IMG/VR virus record: IMGVR_UViG_3300023171_000031
Location: 1-35,906 of that record
DNA: 35,906 nt
DNA from: a virus
Direction: 5' to 3' (one strand)
Position numbers and translations under genes: made by a program. Below the pieces are notes generated by a model, which saw nothing but the letters and a program-made list of their open reading frames with translations, was not told where the DNA came from and made no database searches. Shown here piece by piece: positions 1,526 to 26,961 of the stretch (position 1 is the first letter of the stretch; each line of letters opens with the position of its first letter).

Positions 1526-1887
1526 GCCAAGTAGAACTCAAGCCGTGCCCCTTTTGCGGGGCTTGCGGGCGTATCGAGGACATTGGGGAAGGCAGTCGTG
1601 CCGCATGGCTGGCGGGATGCGAGTCCTGTAATTCTGAGCCAGAGCGTTCGCTCTACATATCGATGCCCAGCCGTGCCGAAGCTATCGCCGCTTGGAACAC
1701 CCGCGCCCCTGTCGCTCCTCCAAGCGATCAGGGGGAGGTGAGCGAAGCTGCGCGGGCATGGCTCGATTTCAAGACGGCGTTGCTCGCACAATATGCCGGC
1801 TGGCCGAATGGCGGTATCGAGGCCATGCAAACGCTCAATAGGCTGTTGGGTCCGCCCAAGCCCGAAGCCCTCAAACCCAATCCCTAA
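1522..1887 (+). CDS. Lar-like restriction alleviation zinc-ribbon protein
   Basis: This is a 121-aa protein. The N-terminal 60 residues carry the Lar signature: KPCPFCG at residues 7-13 and a second CESC pair at 33-36, then the EAIAAWNTRA block. Lar in the Rac prophage moderates type I restriction, but most phage Lar-like proteins are uncharacterised. The C-terminal 55 residues are an extra helical tail not found in short Lar proteins. It is the last gene of the plus unit and its stop overlaps the stop of the convergent minus gene; I see no terminator hairpin between them. Confidence 0.8.
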   Translation: MSQVELKPCPFCGACGRIEDIGEGSRAAWLAGCESCNSEPERSLYISMPSRAEAIAAWNTRAPVAPPSDQGEVSEAARAWLDFKTALLAQYAGWPNGGIEAMQTLNRLLGPPKPEALKPNP

Positions 1888-2300
1888 CCCTTAGTAGCCT
1901 TGTTAATCACGTCTCGCGCCAACGCGACCACGACCTTGCGTTTGTTGGCTGTGGCGGGTCTCAACACCGGCCTTTCCACCATATTCTTCGTACCGAACTC
2001 GATTGGGAGGCTGTGGTCGCTATCGGATATGACGGCAGCTTGTCCGATGGCCGGTAGATCAACCGCATTGGTAGCATTGGCCATGTCGCGAGTATCGGAA
2101 TTAGCGGGTTGGCCGGGGGCGCTAACGACGTGGTTAGGCGATGGAATGCCACCTTCATCCAATAGGTCTTTAGCTTCCTGCGCGATAATGCGAGCACTAT
2201 CCAGTGCCCATTTATCCATTACCGGTCCAACTTTAGCAGCCTTCCGCAACCGTGCGATAAACGTCTTGTCTCCCGTTACCGGCACCCTACAAATCCCCAT
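1884..2300 (-). CDS. HK97 gp10-like tail completion protein
   Basis: About 138 residues. The layout matches the gp10-like family: an N-terminal helix, a middle segment SPNHVVSAPGQPANSDT, then PIEFGTKNMVERPVLRPA, corresponding to the conserved EFGT...RP...PA block. Family members help complete the head-tail junction. The frame is open further upstream, but that part lies inside the preceding gene. The ATG at 2300 or a GTG at 2285, which has GGGGAT about 8 nt upstream, is the better start. It overlaps the preceding gene by 14 nt if the ATG is used. Confidence 0.78.
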   Translation of the reverse strand: MGICRVPVTGDKTFIARLRKAAKVGPVMDKWALDSARIIAQEAKDLLDEGGIPSPNHVVSAPGQPANSDTRDMANATNAVDLPAIGQAAVISDSDHSLPIEFGTKNMVERPVLRPATANKRKVVVALARDVINKATKG

Positions 2301-2829
2301 CCGGTACGGGGAATGCATCCCGCAAAACCTCGCCCATATCCTCGACCGAGCGACTATTAGCGTTCGGCCCCAATGGCATTGCTCGACCACTTGCTTGTTG
2401 CCATTGTATCATCTGACGACGCAGGGCAGTAATTTCGTCCCGCAGAGCGCGAATTTCAGTTTCATAGCCGTTACGGATATTGATAACTTCTTCGGCGTGC
2501 TGACGACGTGTAGTAGAAAGTTCATCATCAAATCGCTTACGATCATCTCTGCCGGTTTGCTCTAGCCCTTCTACTCGCTTTTGCAGTGCTGCGTTAAATT
2601 CCATCATTTCGCCACGAAGCGCGGCGGCGGCATCTATTTCTTGTTTCTTGGTTTCGTTTTTCTTATCAATTTGCAAAGCTATTGCTTTGGAGCCAATCCA
2701 AAGAAAGCCACCGCCAATAGGTGCGCCAACAATAAGCTGGATAACGCCAACCGTTGCACTCCACGTCCAGCCTGGGTCTATTTTAGGCGGAGATTGCGTA
2801 ACCGCTTCCGCCAGCATTTCAAAAATCAT
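2287..2829 (-). CDS. Membrane-anchored coiled-coil protein
   Basis: A 180-aa protein with one hydrophobic segment (about residues 24-48, VGVIQLIVGAPIGGGFLWIG) followed by a highly charged helical region (about 50-140) with heptad-like spacing. An N-terminal anchor plus a long coiled coil is also the topology of inner-membrane spanins, so a lysis role is possible but unproven. It overlaps the end of the upstream membrane gene by 11 nt and the start of the gp10-like gene. Confidence 0.75.
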   Translation of the reverse strand: MIFEMLAEAVTQSPPKIDPGWTWSATVGVIQLIVGAPIGGGFLWIGSKAIALQIDKKNETKKQEIDAAAALRGEMMEFNAALQKRVEGLEQTGRDDRKRFDDELSTTRRQHAEEVINIRNGYETEIRALRDEITALRRQMIQWQQASGRAMPLGPNANSRSVEDMGEVLRDAFPVPDGDL

Positions 2830-3310
2830 GATTGGTGCCGAATTTCTTGACTAACTGACGAAGCATCCATTCATCCAAACGTCGTATACCACGGCCTACA
2901 GCTTCCCAATCATTGCCGACTGGCACCAGTATGGCTTGAGCCATAATAATCAGCCATCCCGCCCAATATGCCGCCAACTGCGCGTGGTATTCCTGCATGG
3001 TCGCGGGCGGAACGGTGAAATTGATCGCCGCATACGCCGCCAATACGGCAGACGGCACAAACAATCCCGCAATAACACCGTTAGCATAAGCGCGACGCGA
3101 GCCGTCCCAAGGCTGGGAAAATGCTAACGCCGCGCCGAATGCTACGGTGCGGGCAAACATGAACGCTGGGTCCTCATGTGGCCCGAAAACATGCGCGAAA
3201 TGCCCGAACGCCCAACTGGACAAGACCACCAACGCCATGCGATTGAACGCAAGCGACGGTAGAACCAAGGCGACTAGCGCAATCCAGTAAAGACATTCGG
3301 GCGACAGCAT
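2819..3310 (-). CDS. Polytopic membrane protein (holin candidate)
   Basis: This 163-aa protein has at least four hydrophobic segments (roughly residues 6-35, 50-66, 78-98 and 112-132) and a basic C-terminus (RRLDEWMLRQLVKK). It lies between a polyproline micro-protein and a membrane-anchored coiled-coil protein on the same strand. This resembles a lysis cassette, but no endolysin is visible nearby. Holin is a guess from topology and context only. Confidence 0.7.
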   Translation of the reverse strand: MLSPECLYWIALVALVLPSLAFNRMALVVLSSWAFGHFAHVFGPHEDPAFMFARTVAFGAALAFSQPWDGSRRAYANGVIAGLFVPSAVLAAYAAINFTVPPATMQEYHAQLAAYWAGWLIIMAQAILVPVGNDWEAVGRGIRRLDEWMLRQLVKKFGTNHDF

Positions 3311-3315
3311 GGGCG

Positions 3316-3477
3316 TTACCCACCGCCCGAAGAAGGCGGCGGCGGGGGCGGTGGTGGACTAGAGCCAGGATCGCCGTCAATCGGAGGACGTGCAGCGGTG
3401 CAATCCGTAGCTTCCTCCATCCGGTCGAGATACCATTCCGTAAGCGCCTTGAGATAGGCTGCGGTTTCGGGGGTCAT
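3316..3477 (-). CDS. 53-aa micro-protein with polyproline tail
   Basis: The ATG at 3477 has a good Shine-Dalgarno (AAAGGAGC) about 9 nt upstream. The protein begins with a helix (MTPETAAYLKALTEWYLDR) and ends with eight consecutive prolines followed by SSGGG. The stop lies 5 nt before the start of the downstream membrane gene, so the two are probably co-translated. I know no family for it. It is the first gene of this minus unit. Confidence 0.65.
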   Translation of the reverse strand: MTPETAAYLKALTEWYLDRMEEATDCTAARPPIDGDPGSSPPPPPPPPSSGGG

Positions 3478-3558
3478 GTCTGAGGGCTCCTTTGGCGCGG
3501 GTGCGCTAGGCGGGGTTTTAGCATGGGTTGCTGGGGATTGGTAGGGGTGAAATAGTTC

Positions 3559-3586
3559 TTGACGCGGCGCGATAGGGCGTTACGGT
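3559..3586 (+). promoter_or_regulatory. Promoter, TTGACG-16-TACGGT
   Basis: TTGACG at 3559-3564 and TACGGT at 3581-3586 with a 16-bp spacer match the recurrent promoter pattern of this phage. It sits just upstream of the small plus cassette that starts at 3615. Confidence 0.6.
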
Positions 3587-3614
3587 TGTGGAATTGACGA
3601 AGGAGGAAAGAAAA

Positions 3615-6869: not shown

Positions 6870-8285
6870 TCACACTTCGCTATAAGACGTGACATATTCC
6901 CCGACGTTAGCATAACCCTTGATCGATTGATGGACCGCAGGCGACGCGCCATCGTAATAGCTAATGTTATCGGTATAGGCACCACGCGCCCTATAGACAT
7001 CGATCAGGGGCAGTTTTCGGGCATCGGAAATGTCGTATAGCGCCTGTAAAAATTCACCCTGCCGCGACAAGGCCGCCCAATTTGCAGAGGTGGGAACAAA
7101 GCTTTTCAGCACCACATCTGAACCAGGGAGCCACGTATCGAGTATCCTATTGATTGCCGTAGAATATTGAGCAATCGTATAAGCAACATTATTCATGTCG
7201 TTCAGACCGAGGTCCAACACGATCAAGTCGGGCATAATCGACGCCGGGATGATACTAAGCGGTTCGAATACGTTGCCGCCAGACACAGACCATTGCATGG
7301 CCTCCGAACTTGCCCATCCCGCGTTGATGACCGAGATTTGCTTGATAGCGCTGTTGTACGCCTCGACACCGACGATATAGATCGTGCCGGACACCCACGA
7401 CATGGTGAGCGCGTTTGCCCCCAAGGTCGCCGATACGGTTACTTTCTGAACCGATTTGGTGCCTGCGGTGATAACGTTGGTCGTGCTGCCGCCGTTCACT
7501 GCATAAGAAAATGTGCCGAAACCCGCGTTCTGAACGTAGGTAATTTCAAAGGTATCTACATTTTTAATGGGCGTAAACGTCAGACTTGCGGTAGCAGAAG
7601 CCTGAATGGTTCGGCCTCCTGCGGAGCTAAGCGAAGCCAGAAATGTTCCGCTAGTGGTAAAACGAGCGTCCAGTGCTGGCATCGTACTTGCGGCATTGCC
7701 GGAACCAGTTCCGTAAAAGCTGTCGATCCCCACCGGCAGGCCAGTTTGCGTTGCCAGGATGTCGGCTGCAAATTTAGGCCACGATGTAGCAACCTGTGCC
7801 GATCCACCCCCAGCACGAACGCCGCGAGTGGTGCTGTCGCCCACTGCCAAAAGACGTGCATTTGCCACGCCCGCGCGCGCGGCGGCGCAGGCAGAACGCC
7901 ACCGCTTAGTCGCTGCGGGGTTGGGATTGCGGACGTTGCCTCGGTAAAGAATACCAGCGCGGGAAGTTGGGTCGCCTCCGACAAAATCGATAAGCGAGGA
8001 CGTTAGGTTGGGGATAAGCGGAGGACCCGCCGCATAACTCCCCGCCACATTAACCGCAAAAACCGTAGTCTGAGCATCATCCCCAAGCGTCTGTGTAAGC
8101 ACTGGGTGCAGTGTCCGAGGTGTGCCAGCGGAGATAGTGTAAAGCAACGACGCCCCATCAAAATAGAACGCACCTTCGGGGTTGCTGGTCAAAACCACCG
8201 TAGCCCCAGCCGTAAGCCCCGACACCGCAACAGTGCCCGTCCCGCTAAGATTGTTGCTAGCGAGTGTAAGCGGAGAAAGGGCCAT
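6870..8285 (-). CDS. SGNH/GDSL-family hydrolase, virion-associated
   Basis: A 471-aa protein. The SGNH blocks are present: GDST at residues 149-152 with candidate nucleophile Ser151, a Gly in block II near 323, GLND at 360-363, and DGASPAVH ending at 445-452, which gives Asp445 and His452. The N-terminal ~90 residues are a beta-rich TIG/Ig-like region, and a beta insertion lies between blocks I and II (about 210-310). SGNH enzymes hydrolyse esters, including acetyl groups on surface polysaccharides. Its place just after the major capsid gene suggests a particle-bound enzyme. The substrate cannot be read from sequence. Confidence 0.85.
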   Translation of the reverse strand: MALSPLTLASNNLSGTGTVAVSGLTAGATVVLTSNPEGAFYFDGASLLYTISAGTPRTLHPVLTQTLGDDAQTTVFAVNVAGSYAAGPPLIPNLTSSLIDFVGGDPTSRAGILYRGNVRNPNPAATKRWRSACAAARAGVANARLLAVGDSTTRGVRAGGGSAQVATSWPKFAADILATQTGLPVGIDSFYGTGSGNAASTMPALDARFTTSGTFLASLSSAGGRTIQASATASLTFTPIKNVDTFEITYVQNAGFGTFSYAVNGGSTTNVITAGTKSVQKVTVSATLGANALTMSWVSGTIYIVGVEAYNSAIKQISVINAGWASSEAMQWSVSGGNVFEPLSIIPASIMPDLIVLDLGLNDMNNVAYTIAQYSTAINRILDTWLPGSDVVLKSFVPTSANWAALSRQGEFLQALYDISDARKLPLIDVYRARGAYTDNISYYDGASPAVHQSIKGYANVGEYVTSYSEV

Positions 8286-9897: not shown

Positions 9898-11103
9898 TTA
9901 CTTGGCGATGTCGCGGGGAGCCGAAAGCTCCGCGATCATCTTTTCGCGAGCGGTCTTTGCCTTGGCAGCAGCATCGGCGAAGTCGGTGACGTTGCGGTTT
10001 GCCATGGCGTCGCGGAAGGCGTCGGGGCGGGCATCGTCGGCCTTGCCATCCTTGACCTTGGAAGCCTCGACCTCAAAGAGCGCATCGAAGAAGGTGTCCG
10101 ACTTGTCCTTGTAGGTGTCGCCAAACACCGTAAGCACGACACCCTTGCGGATATCCGCATCGGTCATGGCATCAGTGATCGCAAAAGCAGGAGCGATCTT
10201 GCCAGCCGCGTCAACGAGCGCCGAATATGCCTTGGCGGCATCGCGAAGCTGTTCCGGCGTGGTCTTGGCGTCCTCAACAGCCTTCGTCAGCGAAACGACT
10301 TCGGCTTCCGCCTTGTCCTTCGCGTCGTTGGCGTCCTTAAGCGCGGCTGCGTGCTTCACTTCGGCGTCGGTAAGAGCCTTGGTAGCCGTGTCGCGGTCGG
10401 TGCCAGCCTTGGCGGCTGCATCGACAAGCTTGGTGACAAGGGCGGAAACGGCCTCAGCATCCGTGAGGTCGATCTTGAGCCCATCATGCATGATGTGAGG
10501 CAATTTGGTATCCTTTACGGGGCGGGTGGGGGTAATGGGGGCAGTATCTTCAACAGGCCACGCGGCATCGCCAATGCGGCACTGCGAACCGGCGCGGCCA
10601 TTCTTGACAATCGCGATATGATTGCCGCGAATATTGGACATGATGGCGCGGTAAGGCTTGCCATCGGGGGCGATGCCGTCACCAACAGTGATCTCTGCGG
10701 AATACCCAGCCGACAATTCTCGGGTGCCAGCAGCGATAGCCGAAATGGCCTCGCCGTCGTTGACTACCATCGGAATTTCGAGGAAGTCGCCCGCACGAAC
10801 AACGCGTCCGCCAGACATACCACGCGAATACTGACGCCAATTGGTTTTACCAACTGCATCTTTGGGATGGTTCAGCGTGATTGGTTTGTGCGCGAAAGAT
10901 GCCATTGCATCGGCATCGAAAACTTCATCCTCTGGTCGATATACATCGACTAGTTCGTTAGGATTTCCCTCAGTATCCCCGATTTCGCCACGGAGATACT
11001 GATAGTGCCCCATCCTAGCAATTTTGGCGTTGACAGCGAGATAACCATCAGGCGTTTCCGTCTGATCTCCAATCTCTAGCCGATCAACAATGCTAACGAG
11101 CAA
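9898..11103 (-). CDS. DUF2213 prohead protease with scaffold-like C-terminus
   Basis: A 401-aa protein. Residues 1-185 form the DUF2213 domain: TPDGYLAVNAKIARMGHYQY, KPITLNHP (His79), ELSAGYSAE (Ser131) and GNHIAIVKNGRAG (His162), consistent with a Ser/His prohead protease. Residues about 210-310 are a charged Ala-rich coiled coil typical of a scaffold. The start is a TTG at 11103 because GGAAGG lies 7 nt upstream and the family begins with this conserved DRLE...T.DGYL region; an ATG slightly upstream is out of frame. It heads the capsid operon. Confidence 0.85.
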   Translation of the reverse strand: MLVSIVDRLEIGDQTETPDGYLAVNAKIARMGHYQYLRGEIGDTEGNPNELVDVYRPEDEVFDADAMASFAHKPITLNHPKDAVGKTNWRQYSRGMSGGRVVRAGDFLEIPMVVNDGEAISAIAAGTRELSAGYSAEITVGDGIAPDGKPYRAIMSNIRGNHIAIVKNGRAGSQCRIGDAAWPVEDTAPITPTRPVKDTKLPHIMHDGLKIDLTDAEAVSALVTKLVDAAAKAGTDRDTATKALTDAEVKHAAALKDANDAKDKAEAEVVSLTKAVEDAKTTPEQLRDAAKAYSALVDAAGKIAPAFAITDAMTDADIRKGVVLTVFGDTYKDKSDTFFDALFEVEASKVKDGKADDARPDAFRDAMANRNVTDFADAAAKAKTAREKMIAELSAPRDIAK

Positions 11104-11247: not shown

Positions 11248-11502
11248 ATGAGCGTTTTTAAGTGGATCAAGGGTGTGTGGGGATATTCTAAGCGAGAGGA
11301 GGAATTGCTTGAAGCGCTTGCGTGGATGGCTGTTCAGTATCTTGAGCATAAGCGAGACGATGGCGTCGAGGCGCTATATCACTCGTTTATGAGTGCCGGA
11401 GAATTGACGTGCGCCGTTTTGGACACGCACGGCCTAATCGTTGACGATGGCTCAGGCGGCGAATGGACCGAGAAGGGTAAAAAGTTTCTCGCTGATCATT
11501 AA
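11248..11502 (+). CDS. Small hypothetical protein
   Basis: 84 residues with a strong AAGGAGG ribosome site and its own promoter. The N-terminus is aromatic and basic (MSVFKWIKGVWGYSKREEELLEA), followed by helices and a C-terminal DGSGGEWTEKGKKFLADH. That last part resembles the wing of a winged-helix domain, but the match is weak. It is a single-gene unit placed opposite to the capsid operon. Confidence 0.75.
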   Translation: MSVFKWIKGVWGYSKREEELLEALAWMAVQYLEHKRDDGVEALYHSFMSAGELTCAVLDTHGLIVDDGSGGEWTEKGKKFLADH

Positions 11503-11535: not shown

Positions 11536-11949
11536 GACATCAGCGGTTGGAAACAACCCATCTTTCTCAGTGTTGGCGGGATAAAAGAGTTTGGCTGGTG
11601 CTAGATGGCGTAGTGAGTTGCTACACGACCGCAGCTATTAGAAGCGGAGTTGGGCCGTACAAAAATACGGTTTAAGATGCCCTAGATTAAAGCGATAAGG
11701 TTCGCGCCCTACGTCATGCCGACAGGTGTGAGGCCAATTTATTCAGAGTTTGACGGGCGCGGTGCGCTTTGTCTACATAAGTCCGTCCACTGCTTAGGTG
11801 TGGCAAGGCGGTTATAAACAAACACACTGACTGCGCGGACCCGACGCTTGTCGTATATCGGGCATAGTTTTTCTGAAATTAACCCATCAGGGTTATCGAC
11901 CCCGCCAGCAATGACGGGATAGGCCAACCGTAAGGCGCTTTCCTGATAG
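11536..11949 (+). other. Structured non-coding leader before the tmRNA
   Basis: No protein gene is supported here. Several perfect hairpins can be drawn: CCGTA-CAAAAA-TACGG near 11650, a nested CCCGA...TCGGG near 11857-11880, AACCC-ATCA-GGGTT near 11881, and GTCCG/CGGAC around 11787-11855. The segment is probably the 5' part of the transcript that carries the tmRNA. It may be a separate RNA or only a processed leader. Confidence 0.45.
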
Positions 11950-12021
11950 GTTGATAATGATCGTAATTCGATCAATTGAAGTGAAGTGGTCACGCGGGGG
12001 CAGTACCCGCCGCCTCCACCA
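11950..12021 (+). other. tmRNA acceptor piece
   Basis: It contains a TGATCG-TAATT-CGATCA hairpin (11958-11974), the P2 strand AGTGGT (11985-11990), a T-arm GCGGG / CCCGC (11994-11998 / 12006-12010), acceptor strand CGCCTCC, discriminator A12018 and a genome-encoded CCA (12019-12021). The T-loop reads GGCAGTA rather than the usual TTCRANY. I cannot tell whether that is normal for this tmRNA class. The 5' end is a guess. Confidence 0.85.
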
Positions 12022-12130
12022 TTAACCCTGCGAGGGTATCGCCAAAGGGCTGTAGGAAGCCTAGCGGCGGTAAGGGATTGCCTACACAATCCGCCTTCTC
12101 ATGCAGACGATAAGTCGCAGGGTTATTGAT
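12022..12130 (+). other. tmRNA intervening segment removed on maturation
   Basis: The 109 nt between the CCA and the GGGGGCG fold on themselves. The outer stem is AACCCTGCGA (12024-12033) with TCGCAGGGTT (12115-12124), and an inner hairpin is GGATTG-CCTACA-CAATCC (12075-12092). Such a segment joins the two acceptor strands in the permuted precursor and should be cut out by tRNA-processing nucleases. Confidence 0.85.
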
Positions 12131-12329
12131 GGGGGCGAAACAGGATCGAACCACTAAGCCGATATGAAGTCGCGATCCGTTTGGTTGAGGCCCGTTATGC
12201 CTTGGCAATCTCGAAAGTGTCGCAAACGACAATTTCATTTCGGACAACCGCGTAGCAGCCTAACGGCTGTGCGGTGAAATCCGAACGGGCTTCCCGGAGC
12301 CTTGGAACAGAATTAACCGGGATTGTTTC
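12131..12329 (+). other. tmRNA coding piece
   Basis: It starts with acceptor strand GGGGGCG (12131-12137), then the D-loop-like AAACAGGATCGA, the P2 strand (12150-12155) and the resume region before the tag. The stop codon lies in the loop of a hairpin GCAGCC-TAAC-GGCTGT, the usual P5 position. The 3' end is placed at the start of the abutting tRNA-like element, where RNase P cleavage would release it; that is inference. Confidence 0.85.
12222..12263 (+). CDS. tmRNA proteolysis tag ORF (ANDNFISDNRVAA)
   Basis: The frame from the presumed resume codon GCA at 12222 encodes ANDNFISDNRVAA and then TAA. With the charged alanine the tag would be AANDNFISDNRVAA. The ANDN start and VAA end match alphaproteobacterial tags, which are delivered to ClpXP, in some species through SspB. 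The middle (FISDNR) differs from the common FAEE-type core. The ORF has no start codon because translation resumes on the tmRNA. Confidence 0.9.
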   Translation, partial: ANDNFISDNRVAA

Positions 12330-12402
12330 GGGGAACGCGCTGGGTACGCATGGGAGGTTTGCACCTTACCTGAGTTCGGTTCGATACCGAAGTTCTCCAC
12401 CA
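12330..12402 (+). tRNA. Degenerate tRNA-Ala(UGC)-like element
   Basis: Acceptor GGGGAAC (12330-12336) pairs fully with GTTCTCC (12392-12398), giving a G3-U70 pair and an encoded ACCA. The T-arm TTCGG-TTCGATA-CCGAA is canonical. The anticodon loop TTTGCAC carries TGC (Ala). Two features are odd. The segment from position 8 to 26 is about three nucleotides short, with a cramped GCG-CTGGGTA-CGC D-arm. The anticodon stem GGAGG/CTTAC has a G-A mismatch and a G-U pair. It may be a working but reduced tRNA, a processing signal for the tmRNA coding piece, or part of the larger RNA downstream. Confidence 0.7.
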
Positions 12403-13386
12403 ATATTGCCCCAACCGCTTCCAGCGACGGGGCTATTCAGTTAGTGCGGCGAACCCAAAGCCATGCACCAAATTTCTCGGCAAGTGAGCCTGCACGTCAA
12501 GGACCGAGAGGGGGCAGACAGCCGCTAAGTTTCTGCGGTGCCGCACTAAACATCCGTACCACTGGAACGGGCCGAACTGGCGTCACGTAAACCACGCCCG
12601 TTGTGACCGACAACGCTAAAAACGGTCGTTTATTCCGGTCATTCCGGATTGGTGTGAGGCTGCTTCACCACTAAGAATATGCAGTCCGCCTACCGTGCTG
12701 GCGTAAAATGCACGGATGAATACAGGGTCTATCCAGTTGTCGGTGGAAGCGTAAGCGAGGGTCCAAAACCCCGAGGCCCTAGATTTTGGTTGCCGATAAC
12801 TCCTGGCGGTCTATACCGGACTGCTAATCAATCCAGCCACCTGCCCTTGCGCGTCCCAAATCCTTAATCAGCGCGCTTCGGGAATGTGGAAAAGTCGTTC
12901 GGCGTAATTAACAACCGATAATGGCTGGAAGGTATAGACCTACGGAGACGTAGGGCGGAGAGTGGAAGCCTCTCATTTATGGGCCTCGCAATCTAAAGCG
13001 GGAACTCCGAACGGGGCAGTCCAGACAGCGGTTAGGTGCCGCCTAGGTCCACCAGTTCCACGAACAGCCCCGAGCATGATCGCATAGGCGGAGGGTGGTT
13101 GCCGAGTATCGGCATTGGCGATCAGACTTGCTCGCGCGGGCAAGACGGTGGGTGGAAATCCTGCGATTGCGCTTGGCGTCGATACAACAGTAACGCCCTC
13201 TGGATCGCTGGTTGTGAAGCGTGATGGGACCAGCGCGCAAGTTCCGCCTTCGGGCGGTGATGGTGTGGGCGCGCGGAGCCGCAAGCGAAAGCGCCGTATC
13301 TACGGATGCGAGACCAAACACCGCAAGGTAGCGTTGCTGACTACGGTTAGCGCGTTCGGATAATGCCGACTTGCTGTCCACACCAT
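12403..13386 (+). ncRNA. Candidate large structured RNA, unassigned
   Basis: About 980 nt hold no supported protein gene but many perfect paired segments. Long-range pairs are TTAGTGCGGC / GCCGCACTAA (12441-12450 / 12540-12549), GGTCTATACC / GGTATAGACC (12808-12817 / 12931-12940) enclosing TCCAGCCA / TGGCTGGA (12832-12839 / 12922-12929), and TGATCGC / GCGATCA (13077-13083 / 13118-13124). Local hairpins include CCTACG-GAGA-CGTAGG (12939-12954), CCGTGC/GCACGG (12693-12715), CTTGCTC-GCGC-GGGCAAG (13127-13144), CGCTGGT/ACCAGCG (13206-13235) and CCGCC-TTCG-GGCGG (13244-13257). GNRA and UUCG loops occur in the plus orientation. It could be GOLLD- or ROOL-like, or a new class. Confidence 0.75.
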
Positions 13387-14307
13387 CTAAATCCCGCTAA
13401 ACTTCCCAATCCGCAAAACCGGAATGGCTTGGCAGCGACAGCCGGGTTCGTACTGCTGCGCCCATATCGGATCGGACAACGCATAAATCTGCCCTTGTCG
13501 CGCTTTGTGATCGACGCGGTAATTGCGCAACGTGTTGTGTTGCCACTTCCCCAATTCCAACCCAGCCTCCGCCATACGCGCCCGCGTAGCAGCCTTAACG
13601 AAATTATCCATTTCCTTAACGGCGATCCTACGCGCGCGATCCCGTCCGAGCCCCAGCGCCTTGTTGATTTGCTTGGCTACTTCGGTTGCGGGACGGTTGG
13701 CACGAACACCGCCTAGCACTGCCGCACGGATACGCGCGCGAGCTTCGTCGGATAGCGAGCGGGCGAGGCTTTGGGATGATGCTACAGCATCGTTAACCGC
13801 GCGAGTGATCGTCTCTTGCGATAGTCCTGCTGTAGCGGAGCGCACCACACGCTGTTGTGCAGTGATAGGCGACTGTGTTGCCGCTTTAGCCGCCGCTGAG
13901 ACGCCGCTAGGGGTGTTATTAGAGGCAGGACGGAATGTAGCGGCAGGAGGACCTACAACCGGCGCAGCGGTCATCCACCGGGCATCTACGCCAGTAGCGT
14001 AGGACACCGAGGACAGCCACTTACTCCGGTGCCACGTTTCCGCCTTTTGGAAAAACGATCCCCACTGGATTAGCGCCAACAACGCGGCTATCTCCGCCGC
14101 TGTCTGCCGGTCTTCTTCGTCCAGACCTGCTAGTTCGCCGGTATTGAGCGCCAGGACGTAGGCGTTCATGCTGCGGGCGGCGCTATCGCGCCACGCCCGC
14201 AAAATGGGCGTGTAGAGCCGTAGAAGTTCGCCGGTTTGCACGGCATTCGGCTCAATTACGCGAAACGGTTTGTCCCGCGTCGCCAGTGCCGTAAGGTAAT
14301 ACGGCAT
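13387..14307 (-). CDS. Phage Mu gpF-like minor head protein
   Basis: This 306-aa protein carries the MuF domain in its C-terminal 110 residues: RDRARRIAVKEMDNFVKAATRARMAEAGLELGKWQ, then DHKARQGQ (His267) and EPGCRCQAIPVL (Cys290, Cys292), the conserved H...CxC ending. MuF proteins are minor head components associated with the portal, as expected a few genes after it. The N-terminal half is helical, with an Ala/Thr/Pro-rich linker near residues 115-150. The stop converges on the structured RNA region. Confidence 0.87.
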   Translation of the reverse strand: MPYYLTALATRDKPFRVIEPNAVQTGELLRLYTPILRAWRDSAARSMNAYVLALNTGELAGLDEEDRQTAAEIAALLALIQWGSFFQKAETWHRSKWLSSVSYATGVDARWMTAAPVVGPPAATFRPASNNTPSGVSAAAKAATQSPITAQQRVVRSATAGLSQETITRAVNDAVASSQSLARSLSDEARARIRAAVLGGVRANRPATEVAKQINKALGLGRDRARRIAVKEMDNFVKAATRARMAEAGLELGKWQHNTLRNYRVDHKARQGQIYALSDPIWAQQYEPGCRCQAIPVLRIGKFSGI

Positions 14308-15300: not shown

Positions 15301-15465
15301 TATTTCGGTTCAGTTTCAGTCACCAGAATATCCATAGCGTCATGAACGTAAAACGTCATTTCGCTGTTGGGGCGCAATCGGCACCGAAATGCTATCGGCA
15401 GCGGCGTAAACCTGCTTTACGAAAGCGCCTTTGTCGTGAGTTTTTACGGTTACACTAGTCGTCAT
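15300..15465 (-). pseudogene. Small phage protein split by a +1 shift at CCCC
   Basis: The ATG at 15465 overlaps the portal stop and opens MTTSVTVKTHDKGAFVKQVY in one frame, which as read ends at a TGA after about 41 codons. The neighbouring frame continues as NSEMTFYVHDAMDILVTETE then PK and ends at a TAA overlapping the next ATG (TAATG). The parts join at GCG-CCC-C-AAC (CCCC at 15372-15369) to give one coherent protein of about 54 residues. Either the sequence has one extra C, the gene is damaged, or a programmed +1 shift occurs on the proline codon. Confidence 0.6.
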
Positions 15466-17365
15466 CGCCCGTCCAATCGTCGTCCAACTGTTGGAAAATC
15501 TCTGGCCCCAGGATAATTTCCCCAAGCCACGGCTTAATTTCTCGTGCCGACACGCTATCGCCTTCGTAGGCGTAATTCAAGCTAAAATGTGGATTGTAGT
15601 CGGGATAATCGGAAGTTGCACCCGCGCGTAGGAACTCCTCATGACGCCACGAAAGCTGGCTGGAGCCGAATATCTGCACAAGCGTGCCGTTGAACACTTC
15701 CATGATCCGCGCGCCGCCTTCCGGCAGCTTCAGAATAGGTTCGCGCCAATCGTCGGGGGAAACCTTTAGCCAATCTAGCGGGGTTCGCGAGCAGCAAATG
15801 GTAACGTGCCCGTCCGCGTCGGCGACCGATACCGTGACGCCTTGGGCTTCAAAATGCTCGCGGATGTCAGCGAAGTTTTTCACCTTGCGGCTGGCGTAAA
15901 GCGTCATAGGCTGAGCGTCGGTCAGCATGGCCCGCGCGTCCGCCGCTGCTACAGATGCGGATTTGCCTGCTGCAACGCCTGCTTCGGTGGCGGCTCCGAT
16001 TGCGCCGTTGTCGTTGTCTGCTTCTGGCGGCTCTATAACCGCCAAATCGCCACCTTCGGCTTCCCACTCGCTGTATGCATCCTCGATACCCGGATACTCG
16101 CCGCCGTCGATCAAGAGACCCTTGACGGCTTTGGCGAGAACCTCGGATGGGACAGTGGAGCTTTCGGAAAGGGTTTTAATGCCAGTTGCCCGAACGCTAG
16201 CCGTCTCCGCTTTGGTCTTTTCGCTATCGACTTGGAACGGGTTATAGTCGAACCAAATTTCAGGCGGCTTGCTACCAATAGCAGACCTAATCAAAACTTC
16301 GTCAATCATGTCGAGGCGAGGACGCAAATCAAGTTCACGTCCAGACGACAGAACGGAATAATAGTTGTTCATGTCGCCATCGCCGGTACTGGAAAGACCT
16401 GCAGGGCTCATACCTGCGAACCTAGTCAACGGAATGTCACAGGCTCCGGCAACCATCTGGATTAGCCAAGTGCCAAGTTCTGGCATTCCGCTAAAATTGA
16501 CTTGTTCGCTTTTCCATTCCTCGCCCAAATCGCCCGTCTTGCTAGGGCCGCTGACGATGTTTAGATGGAACATAGATTCGAATGCCTGAGCAATCCTAGT
16601 CTTTTTTACGAATTTTTCTTCGCCATCCTTGGTGGATACGATATTTACCAATCCGGGAACGGTAAGCGTAGAAGTGCGCGCCTTGGTGGTAAGTGCTGCG
16701 AATGCACCTTGCGCAGTGTCTCCGTTTACCAAAGCGTCCCGAAGGCTCATCATCAGGGGGTCGCCCCAACCCTGCTCCGCGAAGGCAATCTGATCCGGCA
16801 TATCTCCGCTAGTGAAGCGTACCATGCGGCTGCTATGCACTTCCGTCATAGTTCCGCCGCCATTGACTAGATATGAAACAGGCTCGCCGTACTGTGGCGA
16901 TCCGGGGTCAAGGATCAATCCAGGGATAGTGACTTCGTGGCGTGTCAGAACGTGAATATAGGACAACCCGCCCAGCTTCACTTTGGTAACGTCGAGAGGC
17001 GTCCGAGGGTCGTCACCAGCTACGCCAAGCATCATGACTGAGCCGCCGTAGAGCCGTGAAAACAGTAGCGCGCGGCGCGTCTTTTGACGCAAGCCTAGCC
17101 GCTTTTCCTCATTCTCGATTGCGGTAATTTGCTCGGGCTTTGCGACAAACTTACGCCACGGAGCAACCATATCCGTTGGGATAATACCGTGCGCCTTTTT
17201 ACTAGCCCAACTGGTGCGCCACGAAGCTTCAATTTCCTGCTGACTAATAGGGCGGTTGAACCACGTTGCCCCCCTAGCGTGTGAATCCGCCGAACCGCCC
17301 AATTGGGTCAGAACGTTCTGAAAGCCATCTTTCAGCCATGCGGCTGCATCGGTCAAATTTGCCAT
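15455..17365 (-). CDS. Portal protein fused to an Acb1-type 2H phosphoesterase
   Basis: A 636-aa protein. Residues 1 to about 440 are a DUF1073-type portal: RPISQQEIEASWRTSWASKK, a RALLFSRLYGGSVMMLG strand, and the tail of the domain with WFDYNPFQVDSEKT. Residues about 485-636 form a 2H phosphoesterase: HVT at 520-522 and HFS at 593-595 are the two HxT/S motifs, set in HVTICCSR and HFSLNY. Pfam/NCBI naming links this pair to anti-CBASS protein Acb1, which cleaves cyclic nucleotide signals. An Ala-rich linker (about 450-485) joins the parts. Portal function is sure; activity on cyclic nucleotides is inferred. Confidence 0.87.
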   Translation of the reverse strand: MANLTDAAAWLKDGFQNVLTQLGGSADSHARGATWFNRPISQQEIEASWRTSWASKKAHGIIPTDMVAPWRKFVAKPEQITAIENEEKRLGLRQKTRRALLFSRLYGGSVMMLGVAGDDPRTPLDVTKVKLGGLSYIHVLTRHEVTIPGLILDPGSPQYGEPVSYLVNGGGTMTEVHSSRMVRFTSGDMPDQIAFAEQGWGDPLMMSLRDALVNGDTAQGAFAALTTKARTSTLTVPGLVNIVSTKDGEEKFVKKTRIAQAFESMFHLNIVSGPSKTGDLGEEWKSEQVNFSGMPELGTWLIQMVAGACDIPLTRFAGMSPAGLSSTGDGDMNNYYSVLSSGRELDLRPRLDMIDEVLIRSAIGSKPPEIWFDYNPFQVDSEKTKAETASVRATGIKTLSESSTVPSEVLAKAVKGLLIDGGEYPGIEDAYSEWEAEGGDLAVIEPPEADNDNGAIGAATEAGVAAGKSASVAAADARAMLTDAQPMTLYASRKVKNFADIREHFEAQGVTVSVADADGHVTICCSRTPLDWLKVSPDDWREPILKLPEGGARIMEVFNGTLVQIFGSSQLSWRHEEFLRAGATSDYPDYNPHFSLNYAYEGDSVSAREIKPWLGEIILGPEIFQQLDDDWTGDDD

Positions 17366-26095: not shown

Positions 26096-26290
26096 ATGAA
26101 CAAGAAAGGCTCTTACGGCAGTACTTATCGCACCGAACATGGGCATCCTTGGGATGGCAATGTAGCGTATAATCCCGGCATGACGGTCACACACAACGGC
26201 AGAACGTGGAAAGCTGGTCCCACCGGCATCCACAATCCCGCTTTCGAACCCGGTGGTTTTCAGCCGTCTGGTTATTGGATTGAGGTGTGA
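26096..26290 (+). CDS. Carbohydrate-binding-module-like small protein
   Basis: 64 residues with a strong AGGAGG. PWDGNVAYNPGMTVTHNGRT then TWKAG..., and W near the end (SGYWIEV), is the pattern of the small chitin/glycan-binding CBM5/12 fold: aromatic-YxxGxxVxxxGxxW...W. It is the first gene of the unit with the Mom-like enzyme. Binding to sugars is inferred and the protein may instead be a structural mimic. Confidence 0.62.
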   Translation: MNKKGSYGSTYRTEHGHPWDGNVAYNPGMTVTHNGRTWKAGPTGIHNPAFEPGGFQPSGYWIEV

Positions 26291-26961
26291 AAGACTTCAC
26301 CGTAATCCCCTGCACCAAGCGCGATGCGGACGCCATAGTCACCGCTCGACACTACAGCCGCAAGCCTAGCATATTTTGGAAAGGCTTTGCGTTGGTGCGG
26401 GGCGGGCAGATTGAAGGCGTAGCAGTCTATGGCCAGCCGTCAGCGGCGATCCAGAAACACGCGTTCCATGAGCGCAGCTTCCGCCTTTACGAGCTATCCC
26501 GCGTTGTAGTGCAGACGCCCGAGCGTAATGCTGCCAGTTTTCTCATAGGCCGCTCTCTTCAAATGCTAGAGACACCATGCGCTGTAGTGTCCTATGCTGA
26601 TAGCGCATGGGGGCACACAGGCTGCATATATCAGGCGACAAATTGGTTATACACTGGCGCAACGAAATCACACGACCACCTGTATCTCATTGATGGTGTC
26701 GCGACACACCCAATGACGCTCCGGGATCGTGGTATTACCAATCCGAAAGAGTGGGCGAGGTTGAACGACATTGAGACAGTGCCGCCAAAGGAAAAGCATC
26801 GATATTTCTATATGCTTGGTGGCAAGCGTGATCGGCGATTGATGCGGGACACTTTGCGATATCCGGCAATGCCGTATCCTAAAGGAGAGGCAAATAGGTA
26901 TGATGATGGGGAGCGGGTAGAAATATCGATGGATGATGGTTCTGGTGATCTTTTCTGTTGA
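26287..26961 (+). CDS. Mom-like DNA modification (adenine methylcarbamoylation family) protein
   Basis: 224 residues with a GTG start overlapping the previous stop. YELSRVVVQTPERNAASFLI, then CAVVSYADSAWGHTGCIYQA and NWLYTG, matches the GNAT-like Mom family that modifies adenine in phage DNA and so blocks many restriction enzymes. The SYADS (residues 102-106), GH (109-110) and Y..NW signatures are intact. It is followed by a promoter whose TTGACA overlaps its stop TGA. No accessory Com-type regulator is obvious. Confidence 0.82.
   Translation: MKDFTVIPCTKRDADAIVTARHYSRKPSIFWKGFALVRGGQIEGVAVYGQPSAAIQKHAFHERSFRLYELSRVVVQTPERNAASFLIGRSLQMLETPCAVVSYADSAWGHTGCIYQATNWLYTGATKSHDHLYLIDGVATHPMTLRDRGITNPKEWARLNDIETVPPKEKHRYFYMLGGKRDRRLMRDTLRYPAMPYPKGEANRYDDGERVEISMDDGSGDLFC

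Follow-up and report, generated by a model that had tools for sequence, protein, structure and literature searches.

A structured non-coding RNA conserved beside a permuted tmRNA in two phages

The window analyzed in this work is the IMG/VR virus record IMGVR_UViG_3300023171_000031 in its full length of 35,906 bases. The region in question, positions 12403-13386, lies on the + strand directly after a transfer-messenger RNA (tmRNA) and a tRNA-Ala-like gene, between two late genes of the - strand. The original prediction was that it holds a large structured RNA. We find that its core (12784-12980) is a conserved, structured, non-coding RNA in the neighborhood of the tmRNA: the fold is kept in a second phage, where the same cassette occurs in the same position. 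The RNA probably represents a new family of structured phage RNAs located by tRNA-type genes, with no sequence relationship to the giant phage RNAs already known.

The second phage is a contig of IMG/VR, L003, which was reached via the relatives of the head maturation protease of the window. The two proteases are 82-83% identical in protein and 77% at the DNA level. The order and orientation of the tmRNA, the tRNA-Ala-like element, the 5' arm of the region, the core, and a 45-base block are common to both contigs. Identity between them is modular, being 95% in the tRNA-Ala-like element, 85% at 12403-12450, 34% at 12553-12783, and 68% at 12784-12980; downstream of the core it is 39% at 13055-13121, 93% at 13122-13166, and 14% at 13167-13386. 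L003 is the sole homologue, as no third member was found in IMG/VR viral scans or in genome scans. Pattern scans of IMG/VR for the core and the 45-base block gave only L003 or chance matches. The core is absent from the other protease relatives (L004-L019) and from phages with a similar tmRNA, and BLASTN against phages and plasmids matched only pieces of tRNA-Ala, other tRNAs, and tmRNA. Fourteen further pattern-scan matches failed to fit the covariance model and were rejected. We also rejected L048 as a homologue: it was the only one of 16 further matches to lie beside tRNA genes on the same strand, and it sits in a decayed gene copy. This unrelated phage contig carries at 6915-7020 (-) a short tmRNA-like element, GGGCCTGAAATGGTGTCGATTGC...GGGCGTTCAATTCGCCCCAGGTCCACTA, seemingly without a tag reading frame, which perhaps resembles the tmRNA without coding sequence of phage DS6A (PMC11915505).

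All results on fold conservation compare the window with L003, i.e., two sequences, and the covariation rests on this one comparison. RNAalifold predicts 50 pairs in the core, 10 of which changed on both sides and none of which is broken. The compensatory changes are seen in the very helices that had been put forward. More precisely, the outer helix of 10 base pairs (bp), GGTCTATACC (12808-12817) with GGTATAGACC (12931-12940), corresponds in L003 to GGTCTGTTCC/GGAAAAGACC, with 9 of 10 positions paired and one A-U to U-A change. The inner 8-bp helix, TCCAGCCA (12832-12839) with TGGCTGGA (12922-12929), corresponds to TCTATCCT/AGGTTAGA, with 7/8 paired and two two-sided changes. Four such changes turn the GAGA hairpin, CCTACG-GAGA-CGTAGG at 12939-12954, into CCATAC-GGGC-GTATGG. 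Since bases 12939-12940 belong to both this hairpin and the 10-bp helix, the two cannot form at full length at once. The alternative core pairings GGUUG/CAACC and GAGAG/CUCUC are invariant between the two phages. The helices and the two hairpins, capped by GAGA and TTCG, that the original prediction named are all present where it placed them. The GAGA hairpin is conserved, whereas the TTCG hairpin (CCGCC-TTCG-GGCGG, 13244-13257) lies in the unconserved tail of the region and has no counterpart in L003.

The paired segments alone are not beyond chance: 12403-13386 folds with an unremarkable minimum free energy (z = -0.77, 6/20 shuffles as good), and by our own arithmetic a sequence of about 1 kb should hold about 0.5 perfect inverted repeats of 10 bp, so that one is close to expectation. 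It is the comparison with L003 that places the helices above chance, by the retention of all pairs, the two-sided changes, and the RNAalifold z-score. The observed pair retention and two-sided changes were reached by 1 of 500 shuffles, and sliding the core partners left 35-43% of the pairs and 0-1 two-sided changes, versus the observed 100% and 10. Relative to column shuffles that preserve conservation and gaps, the z-score of the core is -4.2 (0/300 as good). The other strand gives nearly equal values, -3.4 for the core and -4.6 for the 5' arm, as expected for helices; the assignment to the + strand relies on its slightly better z-scores and on the neighboring genes. When helices with two-sided changes were counted across the full region without preselection, their number was not significant (11 versus 8.1 +/- 3.4) because the linkers cannot be aligned, and the claim of covariation is therefore confined to the core and the 5' arm.

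The expectation that the region has no credible protein gene was borne out. The two homologues share no reading frame that stays open through the core, and codon periodicity is lacking: substitutions by codon position number 20/15/21 in the core (p = 0.57), against 52/43/178 in the protease used as a control. Several open reading frames (ORFs) of 60-112 codons do exist in the region, but translated matches are short and spread over all frames. A missed protein-coding stretch is refuted for the core and very unlikely overall, although the tail may still encode a peptide.

The 5' arm (12403-12556) is also conserved in L003, with a z-score of -4.9 and 0/300 column shuffles as good. It includes the hairpin P1 and the arm P2 (Table 1), whose closing helix, TTAGTGCGGC (12441-12450) with GCCGCACTAA (12540-12549), is retained in L003 as TTAGTGCGCC/GGCGCACTAA. 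Downstream of the core, conservation peaks in the 45-base block, which contains a hairpin (CTTGCTC/GGGCAAG) and a T-arm-like motif (GTGGG-TGGAAAT-CCTGC). No conserved fold is seen at 13048-13170 (RNAalifold z of about 0). A candidate 9-bp helix, 12785-12793/13118-13126, runs from the core to the 45-base block and is conserved in both phages, with 0.07 expected per shuffle. The tail closes with a 10-bp stem (13259-13268/13378-13387) that extends as far as the head gene's stop codon. The picture of a single ornate RNA of about 1 kb is thus only partly supported: the core and the 5' arm are conserved and structured, but complete tRNA genes flank the core in L003, the linkers and the last 220 bases are unconserved, and the overall folding energy is ordinary.

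The borders of the core are occupied by tRNA-type elements. The L003 core fills precisely the gap that separates the CCA of a tRNA-Thr (5698) from the first base of a tRNA-Met (5504). The window has neither tRNA. At the place of tRNA-Met it has a tRNA-like cloverleaf (12981-13054) that departs from a true tRNA: a GAAC tetraloop replaces the 7-base anticodon loop, the T-loop reads UUAGGUG, and RF00005 gives no match up to E = 10. A scan for an acceptor stem, T-arm, and CCA returned just two elements from the window, this cloverleaf and the tRNA-Ala-like one, and from L003 the three that were expected; about 0.2 chance matches are expected in 984 bases. For the cloverleaf, this count alone is a weak argument and its position the stronger one.

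Upstream, the tmRNA neighbor proved to be real (Rfam RF04321, 77.4 bits; RF01849, 64.7 bits). Its translated tag, ANDNFISDNRVAA*, is encoded at 12222-12263 and the 3' end of its acceptor piece is ...CGCCTCCACCA; L003 carries the same tmRNA at 6470-6194, with the tag AHNDNFISDNRVAA. The tRNA-Ala-like element between the tmRNA and the 5' arm has a shortened D-arm, with a 3-bp D-stem abutting the acceptor, and was not picked up by ARAGORN or Rfam. It has 69 of 73 bases in common with L003, and over 53 bases of its 3' part it is 83% identical to the annotated tRNA-Ala of Pseudomonas phage PE09. More generally, window positions 12352-12404 have relatives of 81-83% identity in phages of Pseudomonas and Vibrio, which suggests a phage-specific tRNA-Ala lineage, partly overlooked by tRNA finders.

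Membership of GOLLD, ROOL, or OLE, the large RNAs to which the region had been likened, found no support. Rfam cmscan with all 4227 families on the window, the region, and L003, at gathering thresholds and with E up to 10, returned only the tmRNA and the two L003 tRNAs. GOLLD (RF02032, gathering score 150 bits) matched neither the window nor L003 up to E = 10, in a search that had no positive control. ROOL (RF03087, gathering score 99.1 bits) had no match either, an absence that comes mainly from cmscan, the separate ROOL search having no positive control; the OLE model was without match in cmscan up to E = 10. By these model searches, the likeness is one of setting, not of sequence. The tRNA cluster of bacteriophage T4 encodes two stable, structured RNAs of unknown function, species 1 and 2, that are freed by tRNA processing. 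Set beside our core by description only, they are alike in lying between phage tRNAs and differ in that the T4 cluster is not known to include a tmRNA. GOLLD is a phage RNA of about 0.8-1 kb found by tRNA genes, with conserved and variable domains and sometimes tRNAs inside its linker (PMC12286853). Our cassette has in common with it the phage setting by tRNA-type genes and, in L003, the tRNA-Thr and tRNA-Met within the cassette. In contrast, it has a conserved core of about 195 nucleotides (nt), versus a domain of 416 positions in GOLLD, and a permuted tmRNA as a neighbor. ROOL resembles it as a large phage RNA near tRNA islands and differs in the lack of a model match. The RNA of ICP1, about 800 nt long (PMC7567579), and that of phage K (PMC9241854) are abundant transcripts without ORFs, the latter near tRNA genes; their hosts differ, and the sole sequence comparison made, a search of the phage collection, gave nothing similar. 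Finally, a permuted tmRNA of alphaproteobacterial type is present in Melnitz and other aquatic phages (PMC9004378), where its partners are a glutamine riboswitch and a transcription coactivator gene; here they are tRNA-like elements and a structured RNA.

We propose, at about an even chance, that the cassette is a tmRNA/tRNA operon with a new structured RNA that is freed by tRNA-processing enzymes and acts in trans. The + strand would be transcribed as one precursor comprising the permuted tmRNA, the tRNA-Ala-like element, and the structured RNA modules between tRNA-type elements. Host enzymes would cut it at the tRNAs and tRNA-like elements, with RNase P acting at 5' ends and RNase Z and exonucleases at CCA ends, and would release a stable core RNA of about 195 nt (about 193 nt in L003) with nested long helices, plus a 5' arm RNA. 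The freed RNA would act in trans during infection, most likely on translation or tRNA-related functions, a target we propose because the core travels with the tmRNA and tRNAs. Transcription as one unit, trans action, and target are all inferred, as is the cutting, which we read from the anatomy: since complete tRNA genes lie exactly on both sides of the L003 core, the transcript is probably cut at these borders, and cutting there is expected because the same tRNA-processing enzymes cleave permuted tmRNA transcripts (PMC11915505). Several observations weigh against this proposal. The 5' side of the window core has no tRNA, which leaves release there unexplained; no promoter or terminator stands out; there are only two sequences and a single comparison for covariation; and the 9-bp helix, which links the core to the 3' block across the tRNA-Met place, weakly hints at an uncut RNA.

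Such an uncut RNA would be a single GOLLD-like molecule of about 1 kb, perhaps a multimer, as GOLLD is with its homo-14-mer RNA cage, with conserved 5' and 3' domains and variable linkers that maybe hold tRNAs. The alternation of conserved and variable blocks and the 9-bp helix speak for it, but GOLLD and ROOL have no match, the last 220 bases are unconserved, folding energy is ordinary overall, and the complete L003 tRNAs that abut the core on both sides invite cutting; we keep it as a tentative alternative. The region could instead be a decaying tRNA array, made up of spacers and eroded tRNA genes that do nothing as RNA. Phage tRNA arrays have a fast turnover, and the two L003 tRNAs are lacking in the window, which has an odd cloverleaf at one of their places. 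This is nevertheless quite unlikely, given that the core pairs survive via two-sided changes and that conservation extends to the core and the 45-base block, neither of which lies in a tRNA. Less likely still is a cis element with no free trans RNA, either a signal for processing or antitermination in the tmRNA/tRNA transcript or an antisense tail against the convergent head gene. The cassette does run opposite to the late genes that flank it, and its last stem touches the head gene stop codon, but a core of about 190 bases with eight helices and conserved unpaired sequence exceeds what such signals need, and the tail by the head gene is the least conserved part.

A bolder form of the proposed operon is a new phage RNA class, in which the folded core is framed by exchangeable tRNA-type elements and alanylated RNA could act with phage trans-translation. 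The window tmRNA, the tRNA-Ala-like element, and the anticodon-less cloverleaf all have G3:U70 and A73, the marks of alanyl-tRNA synthetase substrates, hence the possible alanylation. We regard this as rather unlikely.

The window belongs to a tailed phage, with large terminase, portal, head morphogenesis, head maturation protease, and major head protein recognized, all on the - strand. Between the protease and head morphogenesis genes, the + strand is without credible genes beyond 11502. The 84-codon ORF before the cassette has no Pfam match and no counterpart in the shorter gap of L003. The portal protein (15455-17365, -) combines Phage_portal_3 (residues 44-396) with an anti-CBASS domain, Acb1, at its C terminus (488-632). 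The latter scores 98 bits versus a cut-off of 27, and its HVT and HFS motifs are kept in both phages. A portal-Acb1 fusion would put an anti-defence enzyme into the virion. An RlaP-like nucleotidyltransferase of RNA repair pathways (PF10127; 21022-21993, -) may have to do with protecting the tRNA/tmRNA set from host nucleases. A member of the Mom DNA-modification protein family (PF25680, 110.8 bits) is encoded at 26287-26961 (+).

Table 1. Features of the window and of the L003 contig.
Feature	Positions	Strand	Remarks
Head maturation protease gene	9898-11103	-	Flanks the gene-poor stretch
84-codon ORF	11248-11502	+	Directly before the RNA cassette; good ribosome site AGGAGG, TTGACA box upstream
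tmRNA	11867-12324	+	Permuted (two-piece), alphaproteobacterial type
tRNA-Ala(UGC)-like element	12330-12402	+	Minimum-energy cloverleaf; CCA end
Hairpin P1	12408-12433	+	GCCCC...GGGGC around CGCT-TCC-AGCG; kept in L003
Arm P2	12441-12549	+	Variable interior
Variable linker	12553-12783	+	3' end is the place of L003 tRNA-Thr
Structured RNA core	12784-12980	+	Nested helices, GAGA hairpin; conserved in L003
tRNA-like cloverleaf	12981-13054	+	74 bases; minimum-energy fold; CCA end
Variable arm	13055-13121	+	
45-base block	13122-13166	+	42/45 identical
Unconserved tail	13167-13386	+	
Head morphogenesis gene	13387-14307	-	Flanks the gene-poor stretch on the other side
L003 portal counterpart	1688-3595	+	Same HVT and HFS motifs
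L003 tRNA-Thr	5773-5698		Complete gene; CCA directly before the core
L003 tRNA-Met	5504-5430		Complete gene; first base directly after the core

The core, at about 195 nt, is short enough for direct testing. Large structured phage RNAs that occur near tRNA genes, among them GOLLD, ROOL, and the unassigned transcripts of ICP1 and phage K, are abundant and still lack an explanation. The present RNA adds a third family, unrelated in sequence, with the same kind of location. Its tie to a tmRNA, and the gain and loss of tRNAs at fixed places, suggest that proximity to the translation apparatus belongs to the function and is no coincidence.
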